From Pseudomonadota bacterium (GTDB lineage: Bacteria > Pseudomonadota > Alphaproteobacteria > Rhizobiales > JAKPQE01): a DNA stretch of 64,000 nt. Below the pieces are notes generated by a model, which saw only the letters and a list, made by a program, of their open reading frames with translations, had not been told where the DNA came from and searched no databases. The stretch spans positions 1 through 64,000 of the forward strand of contig JAKPQE010000020.1 of NCBI GenBank assembly GCA_029572955.1. The letters are read 5' to 3'. Of this stretch, positions 537 through 7,152 are shown one piece after another. The first letter of the stretch is position 1; each line of letters begins with the position of its first letter. Both the position numbers and the translations under genes were made by a program.

Positions 537-1171
537 AACTGAAGCTCGATATCGATCCCGACATCGTCGCGATGATGGCGGCCGAAGTCGCGGCGGGCGA
601 ACGCGCTGTCACGGCCGCCATGCGCGAGGCCGGTCCCGGGCTGAAGACGGCGTGGCGGCTGCAGATCACTGGCGCGGGGCTCGGGCCCCGGCTCGCCAAC
701 TCGATCCGAAGCCAGAACTTCCCGAGGTCGGGCGAGAGCCTGGAAGCCGCGGCGCTGGTCTGGTCGAAAGCACCGGTCATCGTGGGTGCGCATGACACCG
801 GCCCGCTGATCCGCTCGAAAGACGGGTTCTGGCTGGCGATCCCGCTGCCCGCCGCAGGCAAATCCCTGCGAGGCGGCCGGATCACGCCCGGCGAATGGGA
901 ACGACGACGCGGGCTGCGCCTGCGGTTCGTCTATCGCCGCATGGGGCCGAGCCTGCTGGTCGCCGAAGGGCGGCTGAACACAAAGGGTCAGGCGGTTGTC
1001 TCGCGCTCCAAGACCGGGCGCGGCAAGGTCACCGCGCCGATCTTCCTGCTGGTCCCGCAGGTGAAGCTGCCCAAGCGCCTTGATCTGGCGCGGGACGCGG
1101 ACCGGGCGTTGGACAGTGTGCCGGGCCTGATCGTGGCTAACTGGGTGAGCACGAAGCTTGATGGCGGCTAG
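533..1171 (+). CDS. Phage tail-completion-type protein, DUF6441-like
   Basis: A 212-residue protein that starts at GTG 533, overlapping the previous stop by four bases. The alternating charged and hydrophobic N-terminus, the central segment DTGPLIRSKDGFWLAIPLPA and the ending LIVANWVSTKLDGG match the DUF6441 proteins found between head-tail joining and tail terminator genes in Rhodobacterales prophages. The position is that of a tail-completion or head-tail adaptor protein, but I know of no experimental function. No catalytic motif or membrane segment is visible. The prophage operon breaks just after it, where two genes of opposite strand and lower GC are inserted. Confidence 0.6.
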   Translation: MKLKLDIDPDIVAMMAAEVAAGERAVTAAMREAGPGLKTAWRLQITGAGLGPRLANSIRSQNFPRSGESLEAAALVWSKAPVIVGAHDTGPLIRSKDGFWLAIPLPAAGKSLRGGRITPGEWERRRGLRLRFVYRRMGPSLLVAEGRLNTKGQAVVSRSKTGRGKVTAPIFLLVPQVKLPKRLDLARDADRALDSVPGLIVANWVSTKLDGG

Positions 1172-1806
1172 TGTTCTGCGTCGAGCTTCGCAACGCTATC
1201 TCCCAGTGCATTCAGGAGTCGTCGAAAATCGTCACCCTCCCGAAGAATATTCTTGGCATCCTCAATGAAGCCCGCATCGCCGTCGAACGAAGGATGATCT
1301 TTACCCATGTCGATCACAGCTTGAGCATGCGCCACCATCTCATTGAGAGTGTCCCGAGTTTTCTGCAGGGTGCCCGTTTTGTTCATCTCGCGCAACGCGC
1401 TATACAAATGATGCAACGAAATCATCGCGTAGTAGTGTTGCGGAACACCTCTTGAAATCAGTTTATTGCAGAAATCCACTCTTTCGGACAGAATCCCGAC
1501 TAGGAGCTCGAGCTTTTGTTCCTTTGGAATTCCAGCTGCCGAGATTTCCTGCTGCATATTCCCAAGGAGCCACACCATCTGCTTTAAAGAAGGGACATCG
1601 CCAGCGATGGCTTCTTTCCTAATAACCAAGGTGATTTCTCTTTGTTTATCGCTGCCAAGCCATGCGCTTATAAAATCCTCGTCACCAAGGATTTCGGAAG
1701 TTATCCTTCGATCGGCGTAGAGCAAATTGGCCACCGCCTTGGGGTCTTGACAGATTTTAGTGTAGTTTTTCTTCTTTCCCAACCCAAACAAAATTCTTCC
1801 TTTCAT
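1168..1806 (-). CDS. Unknown helical protein, second gene of a cargo cassette
   Basis: I do not recognise this 212-residue protein. I chose the ATG at 1806 because it overlaps the stop of the upstream gene as ATGA and has GGGGAAG just before it; an upstream ATG at 1845 would add 13 residues. The sequence is soluble and strongly helical: a basic N-terminus (MKGRILFGLGKKKNYTKI), then repeated helix pairs (ADRRITSEILGDEDFISAWL; GDVPSLKQMVWLLGNMQQ; YAMISLHHLYSALREMNK) that resemble tetratricopeptide- or Sel1-like packing without a clean repeat. GC is about half, well below its neighbours. Its last bases overlap the stop of the + strand phage gene. An accessory (moron, defence or regulatory) role is inferred from position only. 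Confidence 0.6.
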   Translation of the reverse strand: MKGRILFGLGKKKNYTKICQDPKAVANLLYADRRITSEILGDEDFISAWLGSDKQREITLVIRKEAIAGDVPSLKQMVWLLGNMQQEISAAGIPKEQKLELLVGILSERVDFCNKLISRGVPQHYYAMISLHHLYSALREMNKTGTLQKTRDTLNEMVAHAQAVIDMGKDHPSFDGDAGFIEDAKNILREGDDFRRLLNALGDSVAKLDAEH

Positions 1807-2552
1807 CTTCCCCAATCGTGAGCGCCGCCGTCCGACGTTAACCAAACGCCATCAGAAAGGTATATCGGTCCGCCGTCGCCCCCAAGGGCGGAATATAGGT
1901 CATCCTCGCGATCCCGAACCCTAGGAGGCGGCTTCGGTAGGGCTTTTGTGGTCTGTATCGGCTCCACCATGGCCTCGAGGTTCTCCGAGTTTTGAAGGAA
2001 AGACTGACCAAATTTCGCTGTGCGTTCTAGGATGTTATCTCGGCTTCCATGGAATGTTTGTCGAATGAAAGGGCCGTCGCCCTGGCTGGTTGAAAGAACC
2101 GAGTTTGGTTTCATTTCTTCGACGGGGAGGCCTTCAATGATCTGCACGTCAATTCCGTTCTTTCGCATAAGTATGAGCGAAGTTTGACGTTTATTAATCG
2201 CCGAATAGGCCATCTTGTACATCTTGCTCGCGGGCCGACGTGGTATCCACCCTATCCTGTAGAGGTAAACTGCTAGATCATAAGGACGCGCCATGCCCTC
2301 CACACTTCGCGACTGGCCGGGCGGCAATATGATACCTTCTTGAGTGAAACGCGCTTCGGACGCGAGGCATTCGATTGTATTTTGACAGTTCCAGTTAAGG
2401 AAATTTATGTCAGATATGCGCGCCCACTTCAGCGGTCGGTTGTTCATCTTGACCACGACCTCATCACCGATTTTCAGATCGGTCCGAAGGCAGTTCACCG
2501 GATAGGTCGTCCCGGTGTTATCGAAAGCAACATGTGCGATTATGTATGACAA
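1803..2552 (-). CDS. Unknown protein, first gene of a cargo cassette
   Basis: An unrecognised 249-residue protein starting at TTG 2552, with GGGAG about seven bases upstream; no better ATG lies nearby. The N-terminal third looks beta-rich (SYIIAHVAFDNTGTTYPVNC, then LKIGDEVVVKM), with two cysteines in NWNCQNTIEC. A middle block (YKMAYSAINKRQTSLILMRK) is basic. The C-terminus is a proline-rich linker (ALPKPPPRVRDREDD) followed by a short acidic and aromatic tail. There is no signal peptide or membrane helix. It is coupled by ATGA to the helical protein downstream, and both lie against the direction of the phage tail genes. A conserved small domain plus linker and tail suggests protein-protein interaction, but no function can be claimed. 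Confidence 0.6.
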   Translation of the reverse strand: MSYIIAHVAFDNTGTTYPVNCLRTDLKIGDEVVVKMNNRPLKWARISDINFLNWNCQNTIECLASEARFTQEGIILPPGQSRSVEGMARPYDLAVYLYRIGWIPRRPASKMYKMAYSAINKRQTSLILMRKNGIDVQIIEGLPVEEMKPNSVLSTSQGDGPFIRQTFHGSRDNILERTAKFGQSFLQNSENLEAMVEPIQTTKALPKPPPRVRDREDDLYSALGGDGGPIYLSDGVWLTSDGGAHDWGR

Positions 2553-2674: not shown

Positions 2675-3094
2675 ATGCCCACCCCACGCGAAACCATCCT
2701 CGCCGCGCTGCACGCGCGGCTTTCGGCGTTGCCCGCCACCGCGCTGCGGGGTGACGTGCTGCCCGAGCGCGTCCCGGCCGAGGGGTTGCTGATCCTGCGC
2801 GACGGCGAGCCGGGGGAGCCCGAGGTGACGCTGTCGCCACTACGCTACCATTACCAGCATCGCGCCGAGATCGAGGCTGTCGTGCAGGGCACCGCCCGTG
2901 ACGCCGCCTTCGACACGCTGACCGCCAGCATCGGCGCGGCGCTCGCCGTCGACCGGACGCTGGGCGGGCTCTGCGACTGGGTCGAGGCCGAAGCCCCGCG
3001 CCCGGTCGATCTGCCGGTCGAGGGCGCCGCCAGCCTGAAGGCCGCCGTGATCCCGGTCATTCTGCACTACACCACGGCCGACCCTCTGGCCTGA
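2675..3094 (+). CDS. Phage tail terminator-like protein (gpU type)
   Basis: A 139-residue protein beginning MPTPRETILAALHARLSALP and carrying a YHYQHRAEIEAVVQ strand and a FDTLTASIGAALAVDRTLGG helix. This N-terminal helix plus beta layout is typical of gpU-like tail terminators, which cap the growing tail tube and join it to the head. In related prophages this gene lies directly before the tail tube gene, as here (25 bp gap). It is the first tail gene after the opposite-strand cassette, so that insertion split the operon between DUF6441 and this gene without damaging either. Confidence 0.55.
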   Translation: MPTPRETILAALHARLSALPATALRGDVLPERVPAEGLLILRDGEPGEPEVTLSPLRYHYQHRAEIEAVVQGTARDAAFDTLTASIGAALAVDRTLGGLCDWVEAEAPRPVDLPVEGAASLKAAVIPVILHYTTADPLA

Positions 3095-3118: not shown

Positions 3119-4057
3119 ATGGCACGAGCCCAGGGGGCGCGGGCGCAGATGGCGCTTGCGTTCGAGACCGTCTATGGCACGCCGCCCGCAGGCGGCTTCA
3201 CAAAGATGCCCTTCGCCAGCACCACGCTCGGGGCGGAGCAGCCGCTGCTGAACTCCGAGCTTCTCGGCTACGGCCGCGATCCGCTGGCGCCGATCAAGGA
3301 CGCGGTGACGGCAGACGGCGATGTCGTCGTGCCGCTCGACGCCGAGGCCTTCGGCTTCTGGCTGAAGGCAGCTTTTGGCGCGCCGTCGACGACGGGTACC
3401 GGCCCTTGGACGCACGAGTTCCAGTCCGGCGCCTGGACCCTGCCGAGCCTCTCCATCGAGACCGGCATGCCTGAGGTCCCGCGCTACGCCATGTATTCCG
3501 GCTGCGTGCTCGACCAGATCACATGGCAGATGCAGCGGTCTGGCCTGCTGACGGCCACCGCCCGGCTGGTGGCGCAGGGGGAGACGGTGGCTACGACCAC
3601 CAGCGCCGGAACTCCGGCTGCACTGGAGCTGAAGCGGTTCGGCCATTTCAACGGGTCAATCACGCGGAACGGCTCGGCCCTCGGCAATGTGGTCTCGGCC
3701 GACATTACCTATGCCAACAACCTCGACCGCATCGAGACCATCCGTTCGGACGGCCGCATCGACGGCGCGGACCCCTCCATCGCGGCGCTCACCGGCTCCA
3801 TCGAGGTCCGGTTCGCCGACAGCACGCTGGTGACGCAGGCGATCAACGGCGATCCCTGTGAGCTCGAGTTCGCCTACGTCCTGCCGTCGGGCGAGAGCTT
3901 CACCTTCACCGTGCATGCCGTCTACCTGCCGCGACCCCGGATCGAGATTTCCGGGCCGCAGGGCGTGCAGGCCACCTTCGACTGGCAGGCCGCCCGCGAC
4001 AGCGTGGTCGGGCGGATGTGCACTGCTACCCTGATCAACGACATCGAGGTGTACTGA
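3119..4057 (+). CDS. Phage major tail tube protein
   Basis: A 312-residue structural protein. It begins MARAQGARAQMALAFETVYG, the usual start of long-tail tube proteins of this type. Strand-rich segments follow: YAMYSGCVLDQITWQMQRSG, then DITYANNLDRIETIRSDGRI, ending in a beta-rich ARDSVVGRMCTATLINDIEVY-type tail. Proteins with this fold polymerise into the tube of siphophage tails. GAGAA-type ribosome-binding bases lie before the ATG, and it sits directly before the tail chaperone genes, the canonical order. Length is normal for the family. There is no sign of damage. Confidence 0.8.
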   Translation: MARAQGARAQMALAFETVYGTPPAGGFTKMPFASTTLGAEQPLLNSELLGYGRDPLAPIKDAVTADGDVVVPLDAEAFGFWLKAAFGAPSTTGTGPWTHEFQSGAWTLPSLSIETGMPEVPRYAMYSGCVLDQITWQMQRSGLLTATARLVAQGETVATTTSAGTPAALELKRFGHFNGSITRNGSALGNVVSADITYANNLDRIETIRSDGRIDGADPSIAALTGSIEVRFADSTLVTQAINGDPCELEFAYVLPSGESFTFTVHAVYLPRPRIEISGPQGVQATFDWQAARDSVVGRMCTATLINDIEVY

Positions 4058-4505: not shown

Positions 4506-4724
4506 ATGACCCACGAGGGCTGGCAGGTCTGGGATCTGGTCGGCCGCCTCGGGGGGCAGCTGCGGGTGCTGCCCGGCGCGGTGATCGGCTGGGACATGTC
4601 GGCGGCGCTGGCGCTCGGTGACGCGCTCGGCGTGCCGCCGCTCGCCATGGCCGAACTGCTGCCCGTGATCGAGGCGGTGATGGTCACCAAACTCAACGAA
4701 CAGATGGATCACTCCCGTGGCTGA
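4506..4724 (+). CDS. T-domain of the tail chaperone (72 aa if translated alone)
   Basis: This frame encodes MTHEGWQVWDLVGRLGGQLR and ends EQMDHSRG. Small proteins of this kind are annotated as separate genes after the tail chaperone in Rhodobacterales prophages. In this sequence the frame is open back to 4404 and is joined to the chaperone by the -1 slippery site, so the real product may be a G-T fusion whose extra domain recruits tail tube subunits. The intervening -1 segment carries four cysteines in a short span (CDACQAACEDC), suggesting a metal-binding knuckle. No good ribosome-binding site precedes ATG 4506. It overlaps the tape measure start by eight bases. Confidence 0.6.
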   Translation: MTHEGWQVWDLVGRLGGQLRVLPGAVIGWDMSAALALGDALGVPPLAMAELLPVIEAVMVTKLNEQMDHSRG

Positions 4725-7152
4725 GAAGAGAGTCAGCGTCCGCCTCGCGGCCGTGGGCGGACGGCAGGTGCGCGCCGAACTGGAAGGTGTCGGTGAGGCC
4801 GGGTCGCGCGGCTTCGGAAGGCTGGGCCGGGAGATGGAGGCCGCGAATACCCGGCTGGCGGCCTTCTCGCGGCGTGTTGCTGTCGCGGCCGCCGCCGCCG
4901 TAGCAGCTGCCGCCGCCGCTGGTGTGGCGATGATCCGCTCCGGCCTCCAGACGGTCGATGCGCAGGCCAAGCTCGCGCAGTCCCTCGGCACCACCGTCGC
5001 CTCGATCCAGACGCTCGAGCGTGCGGGCGAGCTGGCGGGCGTGTCGATGTCCGGGATCGAACAGGCCACCAAGGACCTGACGCGCCGTCTCAGCCAGGCG
5101 GCGGCTGGGACAGGCCCCGCCGCCGATGCGCTCGACCGGCTGGGCCTTTCCGCCACCGACCTGATCGCCCTGCCGCTGGACCAGCGTGTCGGCGCGATCA
5201 ACGCCGCCATCGAGAACTTCGTGCCCGCCGCCGAACGCGCGGCGGTCGCGGGCCAGCTCTTCGGCGAGGAAGGCTCCATCGCGATGAGCCGGATCGACAC
5301 GGCGACGCTGCGCCAGGCAACGGAGGACGTGCTTGCCTTCGGCGTTGTCGTCTCCGAGCAGGATGCCGACCAGATCGAGCGGACGAACGACGCGATCTCG
5401 CGCCTCGGGCTGATCTGGCGCGGGCTGTCGAACCAGCTGGCCGTTGCTGCCGCCCCGGCCCTTGAGGCGGTCGCCAATGCCATGGCGGCCATCGCCAGCC
5501 GCACCGGGCCGCTCGGCATCGCCATTCGCGGCCTCTTCGACAATATCGGCCGCCTGACCACCTATGCCGTGACCTTCGCGACCTTCCTCGCGGGCCGCTG
5601 GGTCGTCGGGCTGGCCGCCGCCGCGCTGTCGGTCCGCGGGTTCGCAACCGCGCTCGTCGTGCTGCGCGGGGCACTGATCCGCACAGGCATCGGTGCGCTG
5701 ATCGTCGGCGTGGGCGAGCTGATCTACCAGCTGTCCCAATTCGTTGCCCGCGTGGGCGGGGTCGGCGAAGCCTTCCGGCTGCTCTCCGATCTGGCCTCCG
5801 AGGTATGGTCGCGGGTCGGGCTCGCGCTCGACGCCGCGCTGGCCCGCATGGCGGCTGGATGGGAGGGGTTGAAGGCCGCCGCGCTCTCGGCTCTTGACGG
5901 CACCGTCGCGGGCGTCGTGGGTTTTGGGGACCGCACTGTCGCGATCTTTCAGGGCGCCTATGACGGCGCGGTGGCGATCTGGGGCAGCCTGCCGGGCGCC
6001 ATCGGCGACTTCGCCTACCAGGCCGCAAACGGGCTGATCGGCGGGGTCGAGGCGATGCTGAACGGCGTCGTCACGCGGATCAACAGCTTCATCGAGACCC
6101 TGAACGCCGCGCTGGCCCTGCTGCCCGAATGGGCGACCGGCGAAGGTGGCGTGCGGATCGGCACGCTCGACGCGGTGGACCTGAGCCGGATCGACAACCC
6201 GTTCGAGGGGGCCGCGACGGCGGCTGGCACCGCGGCGGCCGATGCGTTCTCGGCGGCGCTTTCTCGGACCTACATCACTCCGCCCGATCTCGGTCTCGGC
6301 GCGATGGCGGAAGACGCGCGCGCCCGGGCCGATGCCTATCGCGAGGCCGCGGGTATGTTGACCGATGCAGCGACCCGGCCGCTTGCTGCCTGGCAGGCGC
6401 TGAAGGATGCCGTGACCGGGTCCGGCACAGAGGCCGAGACTGCGCTGACAGATGCGGCGACCTCCGCCGATGCGCTCGCGACCGGGCTCGACGACACCGC
6501 CGCCGCGGCCAATGGCGCCGGAGGTGCTGCCCGCGATGCCGGAACCGCCGCTGGCGAAGGGGCCGAGCGTGCGCTGACCGGATGGCAGGCCGTGACGGCG
6601 GCGCTGTCGGATTATGCAAGCAGGGCGCGGGAGATTGGCGGCGATATCGGCCAGAGCCTCGTCAGCGCGTTTCAGTCCGCCGAAGATGCGGTCGGTGAGT
6701 TCGTGAAGACCGGCAAGCTGAACTTCCGCGATCTGGTGACCTCGCTCATTGCCGATCTGGCGAAGCTGGCGGCGCGGCGCTTCATCCTCGGTCCCATCGC
6801 CAACGCGCTCTCGGGCGCGCTTGGCGGCGCGGGCGGGATCTTCGCCAACATCCTGCACGCGGGCGGCATGGTCGGATCGTCCGGCCCCTCGCGCATGGTC
6901 CCGGCCATGGCCTTCGCCGCCGCGCCGCGGATGCATTCGGGCGGCGCTGTCGGGCTTCGGCACGACGAGGTTCCGGCAATCCTGCAGCGGGGCGAACAGG
7001 TGCTCTCGCGTCGCGAGGCACAGAGCTACGGCGCGGGCGGCGGGATCAACGTCACCATCATGGCCCGCGACGCCGAGAGCTTCCGACAGTCCCGCACGCA
7101 GGTCGCGGCGGACATCGCCCGGGCGGTCTCGCTCGGGCGGAGGGGCATGTGA
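4717..7152 (+). CDS. Phage tail tape measure protein
   Basis: An 811-residue protein starting at GTG 4717. The N-terminus holds coiled-coil-prone helices and an alanine-rich hydrophobic run (VAVAAAAAVAAAAAAGVAMI). Hydrophobic segments follow around residues 270-350, then alanine/glycine-rich helices. The C-terminus carries the lambda tape-measure C-terminal signature (FKTGKLNFRDLVTSLIADLA, then AARRFILGPIANALSGALGG) and a tail-tip segment LRHDEVPAILQRGEQVLSRR. Tape measure length sets tail length; 811 residues implies a modest siphophage tail. It lies directly after the chaperone that binds it. The gene is intact. Confidence 0.88.
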   Translation: MAEKRVSVRLAAVGGRQVRAELEGVGEAGSRGFGRLGREMEAANTRLAAFSRRVAVAAAAAVAAAAAAGVAMIRSGLQTVDAQAKLAQSLGTTVASIQTLERAGELAGVSMSGIEQATKDLTRRLSQAAAGTGPAADALDRLGLSATDLIALPLDQRVGAINAAIENFVPAAERAAVAGQLFGEEGSIAMSRIDTATLRQATEDVLAFGVVVSEQDADQIERTNDAISRLGLIWRGLSNQLAVAAAPALEAVANAMAAIASRTGPLGIAIRGLFDNIGRLTTYAVTFATFLAGRWVVGLAAAALSVRGFATALVVLRGALIRTGIGALIVGVGELIYQLSQFVARVGGVGEAFRLLSDLASEVWSRVGLALDAALARMAAGWEGLKAAALSALDGTVAGVVGFGDRTVAIFQGAYDGAVAIWGSLPGAIGDFAYQAANGLIGGVEAMLNGVVTRINSFIETLNAALALLPEWATGEGGVRIGTLDAVDLSRIDNPFEGAATAAGTAAADAFSAALSRTYITPPDLGLGAMAEDARARADAYREAAGMLTDAATRPLAAWQALKDAVTGSGTEAETALTDAATSADALATGLDDTAAAANGAGGAARDAGTAAGEGAERALTGWQAVTAALSDYASRAREIGGDIGQSLVSAFQSAEDAVGEFVKTGKLNFRDLVTSLIADLAKLAARRFILGPIANALSGALGGAGGIFANILHAGGMVGSSGPSRMVPAMAFAAAPRMHSGGAVGLRHDEVPAILQRGEQVLSRREAQSYGAGGGINVTIMARDAESFRQSRTQVAADIARAVSLGRRGM

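Follow-up and report, generated by a model that had tools for sequence, protein, structure and literature searches.

We wondered what two small genes that run against the tail operon of a prophage might do for the element that carries them. They lie in the window analysed here, a stretch of 64,000 nucleotides that opens a 133.6-kb contig and whose first genes are the head-tail region of the prophage. The features that matter are given below in window positions.

225-536, + strand: head-tail attachment protein (PF05354), preceding DUF6441
533-1171, + strand: left flank, DUF6441 minor-tail-type gene (PF20039, E 2.7e-46)
1172-2674, no strand: whole cargo insert, from DUF6441 to the tail terminator; GC about 0.50 against about 0.70; an occupied hotspot
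1168-1806, - strand: g2, 212 aa, ATG start, predicted all-helical, without family, translationally coupled to g1
1803-2552, - strand: g1, 249 aa, TTG start
1803-1806, - strand: ATGA in which g1 stop and g2 start overlap, from the ORF coordinates
1806-1910, - strand: codons of the g1 C-terminal module (REDDLYSALGGDGGPIYLSDGVWLTSDGGAHDWGR), which also occurs on proteins with unrelated bodies
2675-3094, + strand: right flank, tail terminator (PHROG 4204, E 1.2e-43)
3119-4057, + strand: tail tube-like gene, named by position and gene order
4717-7152, + strand: tape measure-like gene, named by position and gene order
g1 residues 1-85, about 86-205 and 215-249: N-domain, middle domain and C-terminal module

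On the minus strand g1 runs from 2552 to 1803 and the ATG of g2 lies at 1806, and the ATGA at 1803-1806 is therefore common to both. At the other end of g2 its stop converges with that of DUF6441 in a 4-nt overlap. The earlier note had described two coupled genes with an ATGA overlap on the strand opposite to the phage genes, and the ORF list and the coordinates agree on this. Its account of a low-GC insert between DUF6441 and a tail terminator stood as well, with a GC of 0.49-0.51 in the insert versus 0.65-0.72 in its surroundings and clear family matches for both flanks. Two promoter-like and three terminator-like matches were found at the cassette, and shuffled sequence gives about as many.

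Neither protein had been assigned to a known family, and scans of Pfam, PHROGs, PADLOC (models up to an E of 5), NCBIfam and PDB sequences were blank for both g1 and g2. No enzymatic or transport domain was found in either by the Pfam, PHROGs, PADLOC and NCBIfam scans. The structural model of g2 is all-helical, which at a pLDDT of 60 is a weak test of the helical description. Its fold search returned generic helical matches only, the best PDB match being a designed protein at Z 9.6, a value that helical models lacking a true match are stated to reach, and Pfam gave no TPR or Sel1 repeat. The model of g1 (pLDDT 41) was too poor for a fold search. Two assignments of g1 domains were tried and not supported by hhalign: that of the N-domain to the PriA 3'-binding domain (probability 4% across 17 columns, against 99.6% for the positive control) and that of the middle domain to the YbjN chaperones (0.1%, against 100% for the positive control).

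Is the insert then a moron? Indeed, it sits between genes that are adjacent in relatives without it. The same gene order is present in the cultured Rhodobacter capsulatus phages RcDormio and RcOceanus, in Nostoc phage Nsp-JY21 and in Synechococcus phage Sc-Yong805-1. In all four the site is empty, the DUF6441 and terminator homologues overlapping by 4 bp (ATGA), and the DUF6441 homologues of these phages show 46-59% identity. The two genes are also adjacent on a fecal phage scaffold. These empty-site relatives are more distant than the close relatives of the window, among which the insert was present in all 139 loci having both flanks and absent from none. The 139 loci come mostly from IMG/VR, with the window and genome loci added, and some contigs are present twice; because loci were picked by similarity to the flanks of the window, 'never empty' holds for the close group. 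The earlier note had read the insert as a moron, and the empty-site relatives together with the 139 filled loci support that reading by a stronger test than its own.

The filled loci hold 116 distinct inserts of 375-3234 bp (median about 1.07 kb). Every one of these has a GC below that of its flanks, 114 by more than 5 points, and the mean values are 0.56 for inserts versus 0.71 for flanks. A base composition unlike that of the phage, as looked for in a moron, is also found for the insert of the window (0.50 against 0.70). The longest insert ORF is antisense in 73 inserts and sense in 40. Where a terminator locus had at least 4.5 kb upstream, DUF6441 lay within 6 kb of the terminator in 87 of 88 cases. 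Inspection by eye of the slot borders in 45 inserts revealed no conserved motif or repeat.

The site is a cargo hotspot, a single place that is filled with mostly unrelated cargo among relatives. We counted 137 cargo ORFs of at least 110 aa in 104 clusters, some of which may be non-coding antisense frames. Single cargo proteins gave defence-type matches to RmrA, PDC-S31, PDC-M19, capP, PglW and QueC, and further ones to WYL, HEPN, HipA, NYN and Schlafen AlbA_2. Other cargo matched cation efflux, chromate and sulfate transporters, a decarboxylase and GNAT enzymes. As the cargo mixes defence genes with transporters and enzymes, position in the slot is no proof of defence. The largest insert (L073:228-3267) holds four sense genes including a QueC-like one and is possibly a defence or deazaguanine operon. 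Twice, a single host genome carries two prophage contigs of this group whose slots hold different cargo: L063 and L084 in IMG/VR genome 2882020545, and L032 and L095 in 2885094732. The cargo sites of P2, P4 and lambda in Enterobacteria likewise take an independent insert of deviant GC between two structural genes, and likewise swap cargo that includes defence genes. In contrast to those sites, the slot described here belongs to alphaproteobacterial siphoprophages, has DUF6441 on one side and the tail terminator on the other, holds mostly antisense cargo and is filled in all close-relative loci. No description of it was found in the literature searched. It offers a source of unstudied mobile-element cargo, with more than 100 distinct inserts at one address that can be traced by their flanks.

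We then asked whether g1 and g2 belong together. The pair is retained in two other loci (L002 and L003), and g1 is 99% identical in a Jannaschia rubra locus (L162), strain CECT 5088 having it in a homologous prophage. Four loci (L004-L007) carry g1 followed by a different second gene of 152-161 aa, one locus (L010) has g2 at the same site without g1, and the distant relatives of g1 are plasmid-borne with varying neighbours. The other partner and the solitary g2 make the cassette modular, and the idea of a fixed two-gene system is not supported. In the g1 relatives the start codon is TTG or GTG, and its position matches that of the TTG of g1. Comparison of g1 with L004 and L163, at moderate divergence, gave a dN/dS of 0.08-0.09, dS being saturated further out; for g2 against L010, dN was 0.14 and dS was saturated. 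Judging by these rates, both genes are under purifying selection, the dN/dS figure coming from the g1 comparisons. Since other prophages carry these genes at this site too, and the genes are subject to such selection, the cassette is more than a chance insertion.

Among more distant relatives, one part of g1 stood out. Its last ~35 residues carry the motif GEPxYLSDGxW/YxxSDG and are also found on proteins whose bodies differ from that of g1, where they almost always form the very C-terminus. The distant relatives are 41-57% identical to g1 in this part and 20-37% in their bodies. Bearers of the module comprise four mutually unrelated-looking bodies; alpha-, beta- and gammaproteobacteria have them on plasmids, prophages and islands. 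On Rhizobium and Agrobacterium plasmids, a 482-aa bearer matches g1 at z 15.1 in the module and z -0.4 in the body. In Rhizobium, it is directly followed by a member of a small module-bearing family, whose proteins have about 110-175 aa and to which the second gene of L004-L007 belongs; the members tested reached module scores of z 7.5-11.8. The STM3752 family, which occurs in Salmonella SPI-3 and in E. coli lambdoid prophages, scored z 7.8-10.2 in the module. A W-type version (YLSDGVWLxSDGxxxDxGR) is found mostly on g1-like and 482-aa proteins and also on some small ones, and a Y-type version (YLSDGMYLxPDGxL) mostly on small proteins. The homology rests on 35 residues, for which shuffled sequences rarely or never match the observed scores. 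By these comparisons it is a transferable C-terminal module, newly recognised here.

The module is rare. It was found in 1 of 398 genomes sampled from the phylum, in 2 of 385 from the class and, clearly, in 3 of 293 from the order of Jannaschia, with the centre genome or that of the window itself counted in. Whole-genome matches with E 0.01-1 were judged to be chance, as were those in Pseudomonas MPC6, L256 and L294. Searching all six frames of the collected loci with a module profile gave clear matches (E <=5e-8) only to known bearers and to one 58-aa ORF (L289:3968-4144) that is mostly module. This ORF belongs to a phage judged T7-like by inspection, where it lies between the primase-helicase and DNA polymerase genes and overlaps the primase-helicase stop. 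Stand-alone modules were searched for in other phages and not found, leaving this ORF as the sole case.

Almost all module-bearing proteins are encoded on mobile elements. Using tblastn of plasmids, we found g1 relatives of full length on those of Acinetobacter (38.6%, E 3e-45) and the middle domain plus module on those of Vibrio, Psychrobacter and, weakly, Variovorax (E 0.04). Klebsiella IncF plasmids carry degenerate relatives with broken frames and a lost module (L168:6001-6699, L172), and a g1 copy with an in-frame stop in a Rhodobacteraceae MAG adjoins a replication gene named plasmid-type by inspection. The plasmid relatives have toxin-antitoxin, restriction-modification, mobilisation and replication genes among their neighbours. 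TOTE conflict genes adjoin module-bearing proteins on Frigidibacter and Leisingera plasmids; other bearers lie beside helicase genes or, in lambdoid prophages, in their moron region. The TOTE/conflict neighbourhood favours conflict over physiology and is no proof of it.

We therefore regard the cassette, tentatively and in a form somewhat likelier to fail than to hold, as a moron in a permanently filled slot of a Rhodobacterales-type siphoprophage that is expressed in the lysogen, acts in conflict between elements and docks a partner through its C-terminal module. This reading starts from what was seen above, namely the placement, the swapping of cargo and partners, the foreign composition, the antisense strand, the selection and the shared module; the activity and the docking are what we infer. 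Expressed from the lysogen, the cassette would act in mobile-element conflict, most likely in superinfection exclusion or defence and less likely in counter-defence. The variable body of g1 would sense or act on the target, and the module, which looks beta-hairpin-like, would dock g1 to a common partner. A candidate for this partner is a conserved proteobacterial host factor; in some loci it might instead be the second protein of the cassette itself. g2 would serve as a helical adaptor or regulator of g1, a role that the small module-bearing protein would take in other cassettes. The defence-type families among the slot's cargo, and the toxin-antitoxin and restriction-modification genes beside plasmid relatives of g1, speak for this explanation. 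That g2 itself lacks the module counts against it, as do the mixed cargo of the slot, the non-obligate pairing and the dissimilarity in sequence between g2 and the Sel1 or TPR-like neighbours of other module-bearing proteins.

The shared module hints at a common molecular partner. A bolder version is possible, though it would more probably prove wrong: the module may be a new docking peptide that, on unrelated proteins or alone, engages one conserved partner in proteobacterial cells, with the slot trading such proteins. If so, plasmids, prophages and lytic-type phages would all use it. The module offers a way to what may be a common target of otherwise dissimilar proteins, and if that target were a host defence or quality-control factor, hypothetical genes including STM3752 would gain a functional lead.

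Could the cassette serve the incoming element instead? In that case the module would be a decoy or inhibitor that captures a host factor such as an adaptor of defence or proteolysis, and this would explain why plasmids, temperate phages and a lytic-type phage all have it. The nearly module-only ORF between two replication genes of the T7-like phage and the confinement of module-bearing proteins almost wholly to mobile elements speak for such counter-defence. However, a stand-alone module was found just once, and the window genes lie antisense to the tail operon, in a cargo slot and not in an early region, so that we regard it as unlikely. Sorting into virions or a secretion system is scarcely probable at all: sorting signals typically are a conserved extreme C-terminus shared by unrelated bodies, as the module is (its W type ends in DxGR), yet it is also found on small non-mobilisable plasmids and a Salmonella chromosomal island, and its bearers have no common secretion system or virion.

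The remaining alternatives concern the role of the pair. Lysogenic conversion for host physiology (stress, envelope or metabolism) would fit the efflux and transport genes, the decarboxylase and the GNAT enzymes that fill the slot elsewhere. This appears decidedly unlikely for g1 and g2, in which Pfam, PHROGs, PADLOC and NCBIfam showed no enzymatic or transport domain, and plasmid g1 relatives adjoin toxin-antitoxin and restriction-modification genes. An addiction pair, in which g1 and g2, or g1 and a small module-bearing protein, are toxin and neutraliser, would explain ATGA coupling of two small genes in a mobile-element setting. We consider it very unlikely: the unit is not obligate, as partners are exchanged in L004-L007 and g2 stands alone in L010, and no toxin-antitoxin family was matched in Pfam, PHROGs, PADLOC or NCBIfam.

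Several look-alikes of the module-bearing proteins were compared. TY-Chap3 (PF22552) comprises CesT/YbjN-like predicted peptide-binding chaperones of ADP-ribose conflict systems (PMC9503650). It matched weakly, over 87 residues, one small module-bearing protein (L224, a relative of the L004-L007 gene), at 18.2 bits against a cut-off of 27 and in 1 of 7 family members, so the small family was not placed in it; g1 and g2 themselves gave no match. A small module-bearing protein tried as a YbjN showed no profile similarity by hhalign (YbjN positive control 100%). STM3752, a mobile-element gene without assigned function, shares the C-terminal module with g1 (z 7.8), and its body shows no detectable kinship to g1 (z -0.5; hhalign probability 0.4%), leaving the g1 middle domain unsupported as an STM3752 body. 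Helical-repeat-like genes lie near a module gene in four loci (a Psychrobacter Sel1 gene, its Vibrio homologue, G1027 and Paenochrobactrum). g2 shows no similarity to these Sel1/TPR-like neighbours (z <1), and a module plus a helical-repeat partner is therefore a mere recurrent impression.

Three further arrangements were seen around module-bearing genes. An E. coli STM3752-like moron (L220:7107-7511) lies between the replicative helicase and Q genes of lambdoid prophages, near an ImmA/IrrE metallopeptidase gene. In L257, L185 and L186, a small island recurs that consists of an HTH regulator, a DUF4258-like gene and a module-bearing gene, and the helicase-like gene after it differs (953 aa in L185, 639 aa in L186). 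Lastly, a 132-aa prophage protein (L258:6114-6512) encoded right after a module-bearing gene ends in DDEIPF like the SSB tip and may mimic SSB.
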